Assembly (NCBI GenBank): GCA_025363475.1
Contig: JANYDS010000027.1
Location: 1 to 64,000 of the forward strand
Direction of reading: 5' to 3'
From: Terriglobia bacterium
Lineage (GTDB): Bacteria > Acidobacteriota > Terriglobia > Bryobacterales > Bryobacteraceae
Length of the DNA stretch: 64,000 bases
Positions within the stretch are counted from its first letter, which is position 1. Each line of letters begins with the position of its first letter. The position numbers and the translations under genes are program-made. The notes beneath the pieces were generated by a model, which ran no database searches, was not told the DNA's origin, and was given only the letters and a program-made list of their open reading frames with translations. Below are positions 34-12,310 of the stretch, piece after piece.

Positions 34-233
34 TCCCCCCAAAACCCCTCTGCGCTTTCCGCAGAACCCTCCGTGCCCTGCGAGAAAGCATTTGACCTCA
101 CCTTCCTCAACATAAAGGGAAGGTAGTCAGAATTCATTCACGTCTCAAGAAACTTTATATCCACCCCAAAATCAACAACATAAAAAAATTAACCCCCAGA
201 ACCCTCAACCCCATACCCCAAAATACGGCCATC

Positions 234-827
234 ATGAGAATAGACCGTCGCCTCTTCACCTCCCCCCTCAACGCCCGCAAATCCCGCGGCCCCACCACCC
301 CCGAAGGTAAAGCCCGTTCCGCCGCAGGCAACAACCTCCGCCACGGCCTCCTCGCCCACAACATCGTCCTCGACGAAGAGTCCACTGCCCGTTTCGCTAC
401 CCATGCCGCCCGCTTCCAGCACCAGCTCGAACCCCGCGATTTCGTCGAACACACTCTCGTCGAATCCCTCATCACCATCCGCTGGCGCCAGCTCCGTGTC
501 TGGAACGCCGAAAAGGTCACACTCTCCGAAGAAATGCGCAATCAGGCCGCCGGACTCCCCTCCATCCCCAAATCCGTCCGCGCCGCTTTTGCCTTCCGCT
601 CCCTCGCCGAAAAATCCCGCTCCCTCGAACTCATCGGACGTTTCGAAGCCCGCTTCGAACGCCAGTTCACCCGCACCCTCAACCGTTACCTCCAACTCCG
701 CGCCAGAGAAACAGTAAATTCGCTGTTCGATCCTAATTCTTCCGACCTTGAAACAGCCGCAAATAATTCAAAACAAGATACTTACCCAACATTAAACCAG
801 CCGGACGAAGAACCAAAACCATCCTAA
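234..827 (+). CDS. TPEGK-motif protein of unknown function
   Basis: 197 residues with no signal peptide or membrane segment. Near the N-terminus (about residues 12-40) it carries the pattern NARKSRGPTTPEGKARSA followed by a LRHGLL block. I recall this pattern from many paralogues in Acidobacteriota and Planctomycetes genomes. The remainder is charged and probably helical. Function is unknown; the Arg/Lys-rich N-terminus would suit nucleic-acid binding, but that is inference. It ends just before a short repeat array and the dnaE2 start, so co-transcription with dnaE2 is possible. The ATG at 234 is the only start that keeps the motif at the N-terminus. Confidence 0.75.
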   Translation: MRIDRRLFTSPLNARKSRGPTTPEGKARSAAGNNLRHGLLAHNIVLDEESTARFATHAARFQHQLEPRDFVEHTLVESLITIRWRQLRVWNAEKVTLSEEMRNQAAGLPSIPKSVRAAFAFRSLAEKSRSLELIGRFEARFERQFTRTLNRYLQLRARETVNSLFDPNSSDLETAANNSKQDTYPTLNQPDEEPKPS

Positions 828-884: not shown

Positions 885-905
885 GATGGCGAACAAAAGG
901 CGAAT

Positions 906-3900
906 ATGAAACCCGCAACTTCCCAAACCTACACCGAACTACACGCCCGTTCCGCCTTCAGCTTCCTCCGCGGCGCCAGCACACCAGACGACTACGCCAT
1001 AGCCTGCGCCACCCTCGGCTACCACTCCATGGCCCTAACCGATATCGATGGCTTCTACGGCACCGCCCGCTTCCACACCGCCACCAAAAAACTAGGCCTT
1101 CAGGCCCATATAGGTTCCGAAATCACCTCGACAGACGGCAGCCGCTGGCTCCTCCTCGTAGAAACCCAAACCGGCTACCGCAACCTCTGCCGCCTCATCA
1201 CCCGCATGAAAATGCGCGCCGGCACCAAAAACGCCAAACCCAATTTCGCCCCCGCCGCCAACCTGGCCGATTTCGAAGAGTTCTCCCCAGGCCTCATCTG
1301 CCTCACTGGAGGTGAAGAAGGCCCCCTGGCCCGATCCCTCAACAAACAAACCCTAAACCGCCTCACCGGCATCTTCGGCCCCCAAAACGTCTACCTCGAA
1401 CTCCAGCGCCACTACAACCGCGAAGAAGAAGCCCGCAACCAGGCCGTCATCGAACTCGCCCGCTCCACCAGCCTCCCCCTCGTTGCCACGGGCGGCGTCT
1501 GCCACGCCTCCAAACTCCAGCGCGAAGTCTTCGATGTCTTCACCTGCCTGCACCACAAAACCACCCTCGCCGCTGCGGGCCGCCTGCTCGCCAAAAACTC
1601 CGAACGCCACCTCAAAAGCGCCCGCGAAATGGCCCAACTCTTCGCCGATTACCCCGAAGCCATCGCCAACTCACAGGAAATTTCTCAGCGCCTCAAATTC
1701 ACCCTCAACGATCTCGGCTACCAGTTCCCCGAATACCCCCTCCCCCCCGGCGAAACCGTCTCTTCCCTCCTCTATAAACTCACCGACGAAGGCGCACGCG
1801 GCCGCTACCGCCCCTATCACGACCGCGCCCGCCAGCAAATCGCCAAAGAACTCGCCCTCATCGAAAAACTCCAGCTCGGCGGCTACTTCCTCATCGTCTG
1901 GGACATCGTCCGCTTCTGCCGCCAGCAGGGCATCCTCTCTCAGGGACGCGGTTCCGCCGCCAACAGCGCCGTCTGCTACTCCCTCGGCATCACCGCCGTC
2001 GACCCCGTTGGCATGGACCTCCTCTTCGAACGTTTCCTCACCGAAGAGCGCGGCGAATGGCCCGATATCGATATCGACCTCCCCAGCGGCGAACAGCGCG
2101 AACGCGCCATCCAGTACGTCTACCAGCGTTACGGCGAGCACGGCGCAGCCATGACGGCCAACGTCATCACCTACCGCGGCAGAATGGCCGCCCGTGAAGC
2201 CGGCAAAGTCCTCGGCTTCGATGTCGCCACGCTCAACCAGGTCGCCAGGCTGGGTGTCTCAGACGCGCCTGTTAGTGACCCCAAAGCCCGCAAATTTCTC
2301 GACATCGTCAACGCCCTCCAGGACATGCCGCGCCACCTCGGCCAGCACTCCGGCGGCATGGTCATCTGCCAGGGCCGTCTCGACACCATCGTCCCCCTCG
2401 AACCCGCCTCCATGCCCGGCCGCGTCGTCGTCCAGTGGGATAAAGACGATTGCGCCGACATGAAAATCATCAAGGTCGATCTCCTCGGCCTCGGCATGAT
2501 GGCGCTATTGAAAGATTGCGTCGGTCTCATCCGTGACCACTGGCGCGAAGAGATTGACCTCGGCCAGCTTCCCGCCGATGACCCAAAGGTTTACAAGACC
2601 CTCCAGGCCGGCGACACCATCGGCATGTTTCAGGTGGAAAGCCGCGCCCAGCAGGCCACTCTCCCGCGTCTCAAACCCAAAAATTTCTACGACATCGTGG
2701 TCGAAGTCGCGCTCATCCGCCCCGGCCCCATCGTCGGCCAGATGGTGCATCCCTACCTCAACCGCCGCGCAGGCCGGGAACCCGTTGACCCCCTGCACCC
2801 GCTGCTCGAACCCGTTCTGCGCCGCACTCTCGGGGTGCCGCTCTTTCAGGAACAGCTTCTGAAAATGGCCATGATCGCAGCTAATTTCACCGGTGGAGAA
2901 GCCGAAGAATTGCGCCGCGCCATGGGCTTCAAACGTTCCGAACAGCGCATGCAAGAGATTGAAGTCAAACTGCGTCTCGGCATGACGAAAAACGGCATCA
3001 GCGCCAAACAGCAGGACGTCATCGTGCAGTCCATCACCTCCTTCGCGCTCTATGGTTTTCCTGAATCCCACGCCGCCAGCTTCGCCCTCATCGTCTATGC
3101 CAGCGCTTACTTCAAGTGCCACTACCTCGCGGCTTTTACCTGCGCCCTGCTCAACAATCAGCCCATGGGTTTCTACTCGCCAGCCGTCATCGTGAAAGAT
3201 GCCCAGCGCCACGGTCTGCGCGTCCTGCCCGTTGACGTCAACGTCTCCGAATGGGAATGCACCATCGAAAGCGACCAGCGGCACCTTCGCCTCGGCCTCT
3301 GTTACGTTCATGGCCTGCGCAGCCTCGCCGGAGCCGCCGTCGCCAAAGCCAAACCCTTTCGCGATGTGGATGACCTTGCTCACCGCGTACCTCTGTTGAA
3401 CAAGGCCGAGCTCGAAGCCCTCGCAGGCATTGGCGCACTGGCCAAACTGCAAACCGTGCACCGCCGCGACGCATTGTGGAAAGCCGGTCGCGCCGGACGC
3501 CGCACCGGGCCATTGCTTGCAGAGGTTCCCGAAACTTCTCCCGAAGCCCCGCTTAAGCAGATGACGATTGATGAGCGCCTTGCAGCGGATTACCAGGGCA
3601 CCAGCCTCACCATCGGACCCCACCCTCTGCACTACCGCCGGGAGCAGTTGAACGCGATGGGAGTCACTGCCGCCGCCGCACTCCCCCAGCTCCGCAACGG
3701 CAGCAATGTGCGGATAGCGGGAGGCGTCGTCGTACGCCAGCGCCCAGGCACCGCGAAGGGAGTGCTCTTCCTCAGCATGGAAGATGAAACCGGCATAGCG
3801 AACGCAGTCGTGATGCCGGACCAGTTCGAAGATTTCCGCCACACCATCCTGACCGCGCCGTACTTACTGATCGAAGGCAAAATCCAAAACGTAGACAACG

Positions 3901-9276: not shown

Positions 9277-9666
9277 TTGCGAAACCTGTCTTTATTCTTT
9301 GTTCCTGCCTTCGCACTCGTTACCTGTGCCTGCAAGGAATTGAATCCGCCGCATCCGAAACCTTACGAAGTGGTCTGGGTAAAAGTAGACTCCTGGTCCG
9401 GTCGCGGTTCAACACAGACTGATTCCTTTGATCTGTCGGTTTCCACCTGGCGAGTGAAATGGAAGACCACCAACGGTACAGGCCCGTTCGTGCTCACGGT
9501 CCACAGCGCGATCAGCGGACGGCCACTGTCTGAGATCGTCAACACCTCCGGCCCCGGCGAAGGCATCGCGCCCGTAACTGACGACCCCAGGCTTTATCAC
9601 ATGGTCATCGACTCAAAAGATATTGACTGGACCGTAACAGTCGAGCAACCCGTCACCAGACACTGA
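9277..9666 (+). CDS. small exported protein, possible lipoprotein
   Basis: 129 residues, read from a TTG at 9277, 8 bp after the dehalogenase. Residues 1-19 form a hydrophobic leader ending in cysteines (LVTCAC). This could be a degenerate lipobox, which would make it a lipoprotein, or a plain signal peptide. The mature part is beta-like and unrecognised. No strong ribosome site is seen and the start codon is weak, so the exact start is uncertain. Confidence 0.5.
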   Translation: MRNLSLFFVPAFALVTCACKELNPPHPKPYEVVWVKVDSWSGRGSTQTDSFDLSVSTWRVKWKTTNGTGPFVLTVHSAISGRPLSEIVNTSGPGEGIAPVTDDPRLYHMVIDSKDIDWTVTVEQPVTRH

Positions 9667-9707: not shown

Positions 9708-10664
9708 ATGCGTCACCCCCCGGCAGCATTGGCTCAGACCGCTTCCGCAGCCACGCTCCGGCAACTCGAAGCCGCGATAGAATCGAGTCTCCGCGGCAAG
9801 AATGAGACGGTCCGGATGGCGCTGGTGTGCCTTCTTGCACGCGGGCATCTGCTGCTCGAAGACGTCCCCGGTGTGGGAAAAACTACGCTGGCCCAGGCGC
9901 TGGCCCGTGCGGCTGGAGGCACGTTCCACCGCCTGCAGTTCACCAGTGATCTGCTCCCGTCAGACGTGCTCGGCGTTACTGTTTACAACACGCAGACTGC
10001 GGAATTCGAATACAAGCCCGGGCCGGTGTTTACCAACTTTCTGCTGGCGGATGAAATCAACCGCACAACGCCCAAGACGCAGTCCGCACTGCTCGAAGCG
10101 ATGAATGAACAGCAGGTTTCCGTGGAAGGCCGGAGTCTGCCCCTGCCGGATCCGTTCATGGTGATCGCGACACAGAACCCTGCGGGGCATCAGGGTACGT
10201 ATCCGCTTCCAGAATCCCAGCTGGACCGTTTTCTCATGCGCCTGCGCATCGGCTATCCGGATGCGAAGAGTGCGCGCGAAATTATTCGTCAGACAGATGC
10301 GCTGCACGGCGAACACACGTCGCGCGTGATCAGTCTGGAAGAACTGATTGAGCTGCAGGATGCCGTCAAACAGGTGGTTGTAGATGATGCGATTGTCGAT
10401 TACATGCTTGTGATTGTCGAGCGTACCCGCGCTCATGATGCACTGGCTCTTGGTGTTAGTCCGCGCGGCTCGCAGGCACTCTACCGAGCCGTGCAGGCGC
10501 ATGCGCTGATTGAAGGCCGTGCTTACGCATTGCCCGATGACGTGAAACTTGTTGCGGCGAAAGTTCTGGGCCACCGCGTCATGTCAGCGCGCCGCGGCCT
10601 GAATGAAACTGCCGGAGAACGCGTGATTGCAGACATTCTTACCGAAACGGAAGTGCCCCTGTAG
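9708..10664 (+). CDS. MoxR-family AAA+ ATPase
   Basis: 318 residues. Walker A is GVGKTT at 55-60 inside LLLEDVPGVGKTT, Walker B is DEINR at 115-119, and sensor 1 is in VIATQNPAG. The MoxR C-terminal lid includes SPRGSQALYRAVQAHA. These ATPases act as chaperones that activate partner proteins, normally encoded next to them as DUF58 and VWA-domain proteins. Neither is present here: upstream is a small exported protein and downstream a Fic protein after a 113 bp regulatory gap. It is therefore an orphan MoxR, and its client is unknown. Confidence 0.93.
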   Translation: MRHPPAALAQTASAATLRQLEAAIESSLRGKNETVRMALVCLLARGHLLLEDVPGVGKTTLAQALARAAGGTFHRLQFTSDLLPSDVLGVTVYNTQTAEFEYKPGPVFTNFLLADEINRTTPKTQSALLEAMNEQQVSVEGRSLPLPDPFMVIATQNPAGHQGTYPLPESQLDRFLMRLRIGYPDAKSAREIIRQTDALHGEHTSRVISLEELIELQDAVKQVVVDDAIVDYMLVIVERTRAHDALALGVSPRGSQALYRAVQAHALIEGRAYALPDDVKLVAAKVLGHRVMSARRGLNETAGERVIADILTETEVPL

Positions 10665-10681
10665 GGTACCAATTTAGAACT

Positions 10682-10771
10682 GTTTTTCACGGAAACAGTG
10701 ATTTTTGTATAGTTTTTCACGGGTTAGGTTCGTTTTTCATGGTAGGGTGTTAAAAGTTACTGTTTTTCACG
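10682..10771 (+). promoter_or_regulatory. phased GTTTTTCAC repeat array upstream of fic
   Basis: GTTTTTCAC occurs at 10682, 10712 and 10762, and a one-base variant GTTTTTCAT at 10732. Start-to-start distances are 30, 20 and 30 bp, so all four copies lie on the same face of the helix. The last copy ends 7 bases before the fic start codon and overlaps its ribosome site region. TATAGT at 10708-10713, partly within the second copy, could be a -10 element. The layout suits cooperative binding by a repressor, perhaps autoregulation by the Fic protein or another DNA-binding protein; that part is inference. Confidence 0.65.
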
Positions 10772-10777
10772 AGAGAC

Positions 10778-12310
10778 ATGGCAAAGATCCGATTCCCGGG
10801 GCCGGTGAAATTCTTCCATGAACGGCGTCTGCCGGAGGAAGGTACACCTGCCGGATATGCCGCAATCATTGGTGCATATAAGCTAAAGGTGCCGTTGCCG
10901 CGTGTGCTTTCCGCAGTGGGTGAACGGCACAGAGTTTGGGAAGAGGGAGGGTGGCGGATGCTCACGCCAAGACACGCTCCTTCAGCAACACTCGAAAGCC
11001 ACCTTACGTTCGCGTTGAAACATGAAGGGTTGGATCTGGCGGTTTTGAAGCGGTTGTTTCTGGCTGCGGGGCCACTCGAAATTGCCGCACTGGTGCGCAG
11101 GAAACCGACAGGGGCATATCCGCGGCGCATCTGGTTTCTCTATGAATGGCTCACGGGACAGCGTCTGAAACTGCCGACCGCACGGTCTGGAGCGTACGTG
11201 GACGTTGTGGATACAGCGCAGCAATGGTCTGTTGCGGGCGAAACTTCGGCGCGACATCGCGTGCGGAATAATCTGCCCGGCACGCCCGGTTTCTGCCCTA
11301 TGTTTTTCCGGACGAAAGCACTGGAAGATTTTGCGCAGAACGACCTGGCCAGCAGGGCGCACGAAGCGGTGGCGGCGGTGCCGCGCGATCTTCTGGCACG
11401 GACTGCAGCGTTCCTGCTGCTGAACGATTCGAAGGCAAGTTATGCCATTGAAGGCGAGCGCGTACCGCAGGACCGCATTCTGCGCTGGGGCAGAGCGATT
11501 GGCCAGGCGGGCCAGCACCCCATTTCAGCGGATGAACTGCTGCGTCTGCAGGAGATTGTGATTGGCGATGCGCGCTTCTCTCCACTCGGCCTTCGTGAGG
11601 AAGGCGGGTTTGTGGGAGAACATGACCGTCATTCAATGCTGCCGCTCCCGGACCATATTAGTGCCAGGGAGCAGGACCTGCATTCTCTGATTGAGGGACT
11701 GGTGGCGTTTGACCGCGGCCCCGCGACCGGTCTTGATGCCGTGCTGGCGGCTGCAGCGCTGGCGTTCGGATTTGTTTATATCCACCCGTTCGTGGATGGC
11801 AACGGACGGCTGCACAGGTATTTAATTCATCACGTTCTGGCACAGCGCGGATTCACTCCGGCAGGTGTTGTGTTTCCGGTTTCGGCTGCGATTCTGGAAC
11901 GGATTCAGGATTACAAGAAAGTGCTGGAAGATTATTCAAAGCGCCTGCTGCCTGTGATTGAGTGGGTTCCCACGGCCAAAGGCAATGTCAGGGTTGTGAA
12001 CGATACGGCGGATTTCTATCGTTTCTTTGACGCGACATCGCAAGCCGAATTTCTCTACTCCTGCGTGCGCAAAACTATCGAAGAGGATCTGCCGCGCGAG
12101 ACAGATTTTCTGGCTCGTTTCGACCGCTTTCGCGCAAGCGTTGAACAAATTGTGGATATGCCAGGGCGCACGATGGACAGGCTCTTTCGTTTCCTTCGGG
12201 AGAACGCAGGCCGGTTGTCGAAGCGCCGGCGGCCAGGTGAGTTTTCAACGCTGACCCCTGAAGAGGCGAAGGCTGTTGAAACCGCCTATGCAGCTGCGTT
12301 TGGCAGTTAG
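10778..12310 (+). CDS. Fic-domain protein (probable AMP transferase)
   Basis: 510 residues. The Fic active-site motif HPFVDGNGR starts at His336. An inhibitory-helix motif of the S/T-x-x-x-E-G type, SYAIEG, lies at 221-226, ahead of the Fic core, so this is a class II Fic enzyme held inactive by its own N-terminal part. Fic proteins transfer AMP from ATP to hydroxyl groups of target proteins and some reverse the reaction. The C-terminal region (LRENAGRLSKRRRPGEFSTL) is conserved in related large Fic proteins. No antitoxin gene is adjacent. The upstream repeat array suggests tight control. Confidence 0.93.
   Translation: MAKIRFPGPVKFFHERRLPEEGTPAGYAAIIGAYKLKVPLPRVLSAVGERHRVWEEGGWRMLTPRHAPSATLESHLTFALKHEGLDLAVLKRLFLAAGPLEIAALVRRKPTGAYPRRIWFLYEWLTGQRLKLPTARSGAYVDVVDTAQQWSVAGETSARHRVRNNLPGTPGFCPMFFRTKALEDFAQNDLASRAHEAVAAVPRDLLARTAAFLLLNDSKASYAIEGERVPQDRILRWGRAIGQAGQHPISADELLRLQEIVIGDARFSPLGLREEGGFVGEHDRHSMLPLPDHISAREQDLHSLIEGLVAFDRGPATGLDAVLAAAALAFGFVYIHPFVDGNGRLHRYLIHHVLAQRGFTPAGVVFPVSAAILERIQDYKKVLEDYSKRLLPVIEWVPTAKGNVRVVNDTADFYRFFDATSQAEFLYSCVRKTIEEDLPRETDFLARFDRFRASVEQIVDMPGRTMDRLFRFLRENAGRLSKRRRPGEFSTLTPEEAKAVETAYAAAFGS

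Follow-up and report, generated by a model that had tools for sequence, protein, structure and literature searches.

Direct repeats in a 30-then-20 geometry upstream of a class II Fic gene of a Terriglobia bacterium: a candidate autoregulatory operator

The stretch of DNA analysed here, 64,000 nucleotides from contig JANYDS010000027.1 of a Terriglobia bacterium (the window), carries a gene for a Fic protein, fic, which is directly preceded by a short array of T-rich direct repeats. What is this array for, and which protein reads it? The repeats belong to a layout conserved upstream of related genes, in which sites follow one another at 30 and then 20 base pairs (bp), and they probably constitute an autoregulatory operator of fic that is bound by the Fic protein itself. 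Class II, to which this protein belongs by its sequence motifs, is described in PMC9755527 as the largest Fic class, comprising 80% of Fic proteins, with functions and control that are nearly unknown. No account of this array, or of the regulation of this Fic family, was found in the open-access literature searched.

The repeat array in front of fic

Four copies of a 9-bp repeat, one of them with a single change, lie on the forward strand at start-to-start distances of exactly 30, 20 and 30 bp, just as the preliminary description of this DNA had reported (Table 1). The array fills the 113-bp gap between the stop of the moxR gene at 10664 and the fic ATG at 10778. Its last copy does reach the ribosome site, as had been stated, stopping 7 bases short of the ATG and adjoining a purine-rich GAGAG. 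The fourth site probably began a second triad that has since decayed; in relatives the other sites of this triad lie within the first fic codons.

Single matches to the repeat are common: with at most one mismatch the window holds 22, against 13.8 ± 3.5 in shuffled sequence, where 0 of 100 shuffles reached 22. What is unusual is therefore the cluster, and the earlier statement that T5 runs at this spacing are not expected by chance is borne out for the cluster. Across the whole genome (4.16 Mb in 96 contigs) a count that had been suggested as a check gave 99 exact matches to GTTTTTCAY, against 39 to the reversed control pattern, and the fic array is their sole cluster. Elsewhere no two copies lie closer together than 572 bp, and TTTTTCAY-N10..12-TTTTTCAY (pairs at 18-20 bp) occurs once in the genome, at this array. 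By arithmetic from the genome density, four copies in 90 bp have a chance expectation of the order of 1e-8 per genome. The 2.5-fold excess of GTTTTTCAY over its reversed control genome-wide is perhaps due to its complement, RTGAAAAAC, which resembles start-codon contexts.

A conserved geometry with changing letters

Members of this Fic family were collected from several sources. A search of the window's own genome and 40 relatives, 41 genomes in all, gave, besides the window gene, family members at 38-73% identity, and 14 loci from it (L031-L044) were used. The matches listed from a genome-collection scan, which are only part of the family, comprise at least 80 loci, among them the whole or partial family members L061-L112, with record titles of many phyla. 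In a plasmid collection a family match was present in 283 records and covered at least 80% of the protein in 255. By eye, a plasmid homologue from Mesorhizobium (NZ_CP080523) likewise has T-rich sites upstream. The family is patchy, occurring in 14 of 396 genomes from the window's phylum, its own included (E ≤ 1e-60). Aligning the upstream regions of fic orthologues had also been proposed as a check, and repeats are indeed present there in many relatives, though with different letters.

Upstream regions of 62 loci, from -250 to +40, were scanned for 10-base similarity at each lag, lags of at least 11 being measured. Similarity at lags of 20, 30 and 50 bp was present in 44, 40 and 43 loci respectively, compared to 2.1, 13.4 and 4.2 from 88 control stretches of the same loci (scaled), and at a lag of 40 bp in 10 loci, compared to 5.6. 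The 40-bp lag is not clearly enriched, so that generic ten-base phasing, the rule given in the preliminary description, is rejected in favour of a directed 30-then-20 triad that is often doubled. The DNA helix has 10.5 bp per turn, and at this pitch, contrary to what had been supposed, the spacings do not put the sites exactly on one face. Among 1,225 two-spacing geometries, 30-then-20 was the best, reaching a score of at least 23 out of 30 in 22 of the 62 loci against a mean of 0.17; the runners-up were 29-20 with 7 loci, 44-30 with 5, and 20-30 and 30-21 with 4.

The same geometry leads in 22 hold-out loci that were unused in finding the rule. At a score of at least 22 it occurs in 11 of them, the next best in 5 (mean 0.12); at a score of at least 23 it occurs in 7, the next best, 20-30, in 5 (mean 0.05). 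The 11 include L168 (score 24) and L169 (score 22), which have A-rich units, and without both the count is 9 of 20. L167-L170 match the protein from residue 74 only, but the analysed stretch still reaches above the likely ATG. In front of other Fic families the triad was found in 0 of 25 loci, compared to 17 of 43 family loci (score at least 24, 840-bp regions; L122, L129 and L134 were omitted from 28 control loci). In L168 (2740-2830), and likewise in L169, it is A-rich repeats of the TATGTATGAAAAAGTGTGA type above the likely start of a distant relative that score as a 30-20 triad; this unit may have switched strand or may be a chance match.

Local duplication could generate such sites, and the array might then be a functionless relic of tandem duplication, or simply due to chance. 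Chance is rejected by the shuffles, the genome count, the lag counts, the geometry scan and the hold-out loci. Against a relic stands the fact that hosts from nine phyla, going by their record titles, share one geometry while the letters differ, that this geometry is replicated in the hold-out loci and that it is absent before the 25 other Fic loci. Almost no weight can be given to either origin.

When locus-specific matrices were applied to 44 loci, 73 further sites were found in the forward orientation and 6 in the reverse, 2 of the 73 being one-base shifts of a site already counted. Twenty-six of the forward sites lie 24-30, 54-56 or 74-76 bp past the third site and 10 lie 25-30 or 76 bp ahead of the first site, both at distances expected of a second triad, and the remainder are scattered. 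Fuller loci have two triads with a gap of about 25 bp; examples of arrays are L094 (30-20-25-30-20), L089 (30-20-26-50) and L075 (20-25-30-20). Measured from the aligned start of the protein, the beginning of the best triad ranges from about -250 to -34. In L078, L079, L092, L062 and others, putative operator sites run into the first codons of fic, and in several relatives the sites there encode an FSGPVTVFHE(R)-like stretch (FSxxxTVFHG/E). An N-terminal peptide is therefore encoded by these putative sites, and a dual constraint on protein and DNA at the start of fic is possible. A different-looking array is present in L044, 260 bp upstream of fic, where direct repeats of about 60 bp (TTCTAAGCGTTTTTGC ... 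TAATAGAATTTGG) are spaced 60-61 bp apart.

The letters of the repeats change between relatives. Repeats of TTTTTCAYG are found near the window's branch, TTTTCGAC(A/C) in other relatives (L087-L091 type) and CGTTTTTATGC upstream of fic in Pseudomonas, while further relatives have GGAGCGTTTTTATG, GCGCACGTTTTTT or TTTTGCCAG. Units were aligned from the 44 loci whose triads scored 22 or more, taken from the first set, the phylum-scan loci and L159-L166. The consensus is approximately TAAYYRTTTTTCAYG, so that the real unit is longer than the 9-mer first taken for it; the T-run and a leading TAA are common, and the 3' letters vary by clade. Agreement at the 15 unit positions is 10.3 within an array and 7.5 between loci, within-array likeness having been among the criteria by which triads were picked.

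The 3' letters of the unit follow the Fic protein and not the host phylum. Positions 12-15 track the protein with a partial Mantel r of 0.62 given host phylum (0 of 2000 permutations), compared to -0.17 for host phylum given protein; in this test the window and L032, L037, L038, L043, L144, L145 and L150 were labelled Acidobacteriota by inference. Across 347 between-phylum pairs from 30 named hosts, the 3' letters give an r of 0.58 and the whole unit one of 0.47 (0 of 2000 permutations in either case). These letters also bear on whether phased T-tracts merely bend the DNA, as promoter curvature or UP elements, with no specific protein involved. Such bending would suit T-runs at 20 and 30 bp, but the letters beside the T-run (CAYG, CGAC, GCCAG, GCGCAC) recur from site to site of one array and differ in concert between loci, arrays nearly without T5 exist (L080, L161), and 73 of the extra sites face one way against 6 the other. 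The chance that bending explains the array is accordingly very slight.

Several features of the sample bear on these counts. The loci are related by descent, and their counts are therefore not independent; the pairs L161/L163, L168/L169, L104/L105 and L106/L111 look like near-duplicates. The 62-locus set omits L093, L095, L109 and L110 of L061-L112, which have no 5' end. L068 and L108, which are frameshifted or broken, were retained in the DNA comparisons and omitted from protein alignment A2, and L105, L107 and L112 are 5'-shortened matches. Of the phylum-scan loci, L148, L153 and L154 were left out and L141 is the window itself. Host names come partly from metagenome bins and may be wrong: L084, titled as a metagenome-assembled genome of Bifidobacterium breve, has an AT-rich, Bacteroidota-like fic and array and is a probable case of contamination or of a mislabelled contig. 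Two relatives look broken (G021:C20:6209-7715 and G026:C86:42482-43993), one being split into two frames and one having an in-frame TGA.

The Fic protein as candidate binder

No neighbouring gene is conserved with the array: in flanks of up to 3 kb the largest shared family of open reading frames occurs in 3 of 46 loci. The adjacent MoxR had been considered as a further component, but in 65 loci, with flanks of 1.5-3 kb, neither moxR nor three other window neighbours have a match, and MoxR co-regulation was rejected. In 22 host genomes with fic, 8 of 13 exact 20-bp TTTTTCAY pairs lie at fic (in 5 genomes), the other 5 comparing with 2 for the reversed control. Given the lack of a shared neighbour and the concentration of these pairs at fic, it is simplest to suppose that the array travels with a binder dedicated to it. 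The only candidate for this binder is fic.

An unlinked regulator of the host or of a mobile element, itself of 30-20 geometry, could bind the array instead, with Fic merely its target. Triads in viral contigs where no Fic relative was found suggest that a non-Fic binder may exist, and binding by Fic itself is deduced rather than observed. However, the motif differs among loci of one phylum and is common across phyla according to the Fic protein, the 20-bp pairs are nearly confined to fic, in the window's own genome too, and there is no conserved linked regulator gene. We regard an unlinked regulator as unlikely.

Table 1. Features of the window and of viral records carrying triad arrays
Record	Feature	Position	Strand	Remarks
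Window	moxR, MoxR-type AAA ATPase gene	9708-10664		upstream neighbour of fic
Window	Site 1, triad 1: GAACTGTTTTTCACG	10677..10691	+	3' part overlaps predicted -35
Window	Repeat copies GTTTTTCAC	10682-10690, 10712-10720, 10762-10770	+	read in sequence
Window	Sigma-70-like promoter candidate, TTTTCA 18 TATAGT or TTCACG 16 TATAGT	10684..10713	+	consensus match only
Window	Site 2, triad 1: GTATAGTTTTTCACG	10707..10721	+	30 bp past site 1; overlaps predicted -10 TATAGT
Window	Site 3, triad 1: GGTTCGTTTTTCATG	10727..10741	+	20 bp past site 2
Window	Repeat copy GTTTTTCAT	10732-10740	+	read in sequence
Window	Fourth site: TTACTGTTTTTCACG	10757..10771	+	30 bp past site 3; adjoins ribosome site
Window	fic, 510 residues, PADLOC PDC-S24 family	10778..12310	+	
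Window	N-terminal domain of Fic, residues 1-178	10778..11311	+	weak fold likeness to AbiEi antitoxins
Window	Class II inhibitory motif SYAIEG, residues 221-226	11438..11455	+	sequence
Window	Fic active-site motif HPFVDGNGRLHR, residues 336-347	11783..11818	+	
Window	C-terminal region of Fic, about residues 411-510	12008..12307	+	candidate winged-helix DNA binder; fold alignment
L199	Triad array beside tRNA cluster	9493-9554		
L421	Triad array beside tRNA cluster	671-732		
L203	Triad array beside tRNA cluster	11875-11960		
L246	Triad array beside tRNA cluster	2141-2226		
L180	Triad array beside tRNA cluster	2543-2604		
L349	Triad array beside tRNA cluster	896-951		
L157	Triad array beside tRNA cluster	125-183		

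The window Fic matches Pfam PF02661 at residues 248-354 and the hidden Markov model of PADLOC PDC-S24 over nearly its whole length (residues 22-509, E 6.6e-198). The active-site motif HxFx(D/E)GNGRxxR is present, and nine of its residues (H336, P337, D340-R344, H346 and R347) are invariant in 46 aligned sequences. Class II Fic proteins have an inhibitory motif, (S/T)xxxE(G/N), N-terminal to the Fic core; here it is S221-YAI-E225-G226, with S221, I224 and E225 invariant in the same 46. The protein is, by sequence, a class II Fic with intact motifs. Its AlphaFold model is confident, with a predicted local distance difference test (pLDDT) score of 92.1, and the N-terminal 178 residues modelled alone score 96.0.

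CccR, a class II FIC protein of Yersinia pseudotuberculosis, is described as repressing its own promoter via a C-terminal DNA-binding domain, on an operator of two inverted 10-bp repeats 26 bp apart (PMC9755527). The model of the window Fic matches CccR (PDB 7XUX) over residues 171-461 (Z 21.0, root-mean-square deviation (rmsd) 3.4, 245 aligned), and the CccR half-site AGATAATCAT has, by eye, TAATCAT in common with many units here. In contrast to its inverted repeats, the arrays here have four to six direct repeats at 30-20, with extra sites likewise in one orientation. CccR (380 residues) also appears to be without the N-terminal domain of about 170 residues, as its chain aligns from model residue 171. 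The Fic core and C-terminal region align with the class II Fic proteins SoFic (3zcn/3eqx) and Coxiella CbFic2 (8cil) at Z 22-24, in a comparison by structure alone; these chains have 353-369 residues versus 510 for the window Fic. The alignments with 8cil, 3zcn and 3eqx reach residue 510 of the model, that with 7xux only residue 461.

The best fold matches of the N-terminal domain are weak: Rv2827c (1zel; Z 7.1, rmsd 5.0, 154 aligned) and AbiEi (6y8q; Z 3.8, rmsd 4.7, 112 aligned). Foldseek gave no match for it at E ≤ 0.001 (0.8-2.1 for the AbiEi-like folds), which is not evidence of a new fold. Pfam gave no DNA-binding domain in this region, AbiEi having 0 matches for the window and one among 46 members, at E 0.12. 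The antitoxins AbiEi and Rv2827c, of type IV toxin-antitoxin systems, are described as autoregulating on multi-site operators (PMC7319586). The likeness to them consists in the multi-site operator and the weak fold match; they differ in having 23-bp inverted repeats, in being antitoxins to a separate nucleotidyltransferase toxin and in lacking a Fic domain. No cognate nucleotidyltransferase neighbour emerged here, there being no shared family beyond 3 of 46 loci in flanks of up to 3 kb, where neighbours were not scanned for toxin domains. PDC stands for phage defence candidate (PMC11514479); the window Fic matches the PDC-S24 model, and the family itself is only a candidate for phage defence. 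The name PDC-S24 was not found in the open-access literature searched. The array is a real, conserved and unusual architecture, probably an operator of the kind known from autoregulating Fic proteins, and differs from CccR in its direct repeats, its 30-20 triads and the extra N-terminal domain of its protein.

A predicted promoter sits inside the window array, with its -10 element TATAGT at 10708-10713 and its upstream hexamer in site 1; the array holds 2 promoter consensus matches, compared to 0.3 expected in shuffles. Because of this position, occupancy of the array would block the fic promoter. The repeats might alternatively act in RNA, as leader RNA, in translational control or as a type III-like RNA antitoxin, given that window sites 3 and 4 would fall in the leader and that some relatives' sites reach the first codons. 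However, the best triad may start anywhere in the range given above, window sites 1 and 2 overlap the predicted promoter, and no Rfam family reached its gathering score in the window (the array RNA was not folded); action in RNA is highly improbable. In type III toxin-antitoxin systems a ToxN-type endoribonuclease toxin follows RNA repeats. Here the gene after the repeats encodes Fic and the window has no Rfam match, and this type was rejected.

Direct repeats, 30-20 triads and an extra N-terminal domain are all unlike CccR, and a head-to-tail Fic multimer is therefore proposed as the autorepressor. This Fic, self-inhibited, of class II and lacking any conserved partner gene, would bind sites of about 15 bp head to tail as a multimer, contacting DNA through its C-terminal winged-helix-like region, perhaps with help from the AbiEi-like N-terminal domain. 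In the window the sites would cover the -35, the -10 and the leader, and Fic binding would shut the fic promoter, giving negative autoregulation. A complete operator would consist of two triads (30-20, a gap of about 24-30 bp, and 30-20), the letters of the sites drifting along with the protein and the geometry being fixed by protein-protein contacts. The preliminary description had seen a cooperative repressor array here; a real, non-random and conserved multi-site layout of a cooperative regulator is present, and we infer that Fic represses through it.

Several observations weigh against autoregulation by Fic. There is no 20-bp lag in 18 of the 62 loci, and several arrays, L039, L041, L107 and L112 among them, have degenerated beyond recognition. 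A consensus promoter element follows triad 1 in 7 of 44 loci versus 6 of 153 other stretches, a modest difference in which ten loci were assigned to the 'second triad' by hand. Direct repeats are ill-suited to a two-fold symmetric Fic dimer such as that of CccR, and the N-terminal domain resembles AbiEi only weakly by both the Foldseek E values and the Z scores given above. Unit positions 1-6 are not significantly tied to the protein (r 0.09, 172 of 2000 permutations), and the correlation of motif and protein is partly common descent, because the array is inherited jointly with the gene. Similar triads also occur in viral contigs where no Fic relative was found, and so another binder may use them. 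Taking these points together with the evidence above, an autoregulatory operator bound and repressed by Fic itself is nonetheless the probable explanation.

Triads in viral contigs and the meaning of the array

Exact TTTTTCAYG triads at 30-20 were found in two viral contigs (L156 and L157), and a TTTTCGAC triad in a third, of 71 kb (L158). In L158 the triad (175-232), with the unit TTTTTCGACA, lies beside long GAGATCCTAAT and GGGTCTT satellite repeats. The family unit TAANYRTTTTTC occurs at 30-20 in three viral contigs (L180, L199 and L421) and in the control order, 20-30, in none; related arrays are present in L203, L246 and L349. A search of the records of L156-L158, made without a positive control, yielded no Fic relative, and neither did a search of those of L180, L203, L246, L199, L176, L243 and L266, in which the positive control, L159, was found. 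Many of the viral records are possibly fragments, and the search for Fic did not extend to those of L349 and L421. BLAST of two viral arrays against named phages gave no similar DNA, although its low-complexity filter may hide T-rich DNA.

Several of these arrays lie beside tRNA clusters, mostly for Tyr, Lys and Leu, with Asn, Trp and Gln in L157. In L180, L199/L421, L203, L246 and L349 the distance between array and tRNA gene is between 6 and about 200 bp, and in L157 it is about 430 bp; no tRNA was found in L156, in L176 or in the first 8 kb of the record of L158. L180, L203, L246 and L349 look like one related group and L199 and L421 like another. The tRNA link, noticed post hoc, is no more than a lead. 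When viral contigs were scanned for short TTTTTC triads, there were at least 120 matches each for 30-20 and for the control 20-30; they are uninformative as counts, and most of the best-scoring look by eye like coding repeats. Among the matches listed, a tRNA lies within 600 bp in 6 of 122 for 30-20 and in 5 of 120 for 20-30, which is no difference; three of the latter (L203, L246 and L349) are family-like arrays picked up in the other phase.

The triads may represent contested ground between phages and a Fic-based phage defence gene. Fic would stay silent on its own operator until phage infection changed its DNA binding, and copies carried by some phages at their tRNA operons would titrate Fic as decoys or serve as switches through which the phage tRNAs respond to Fic. 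This is speculative, and we consider it distinctly doubtful. The viral arrays near tRNA clusters offer a clue to what this system may respond to.

With an operator of fixed geometry and drifting letters, Fic self-repression, a multimer reading the 30-20 array and the residues that set specificity all become directly testable, and CAYG, CGAC and ATGC provide natural motif switches for studying specificity.
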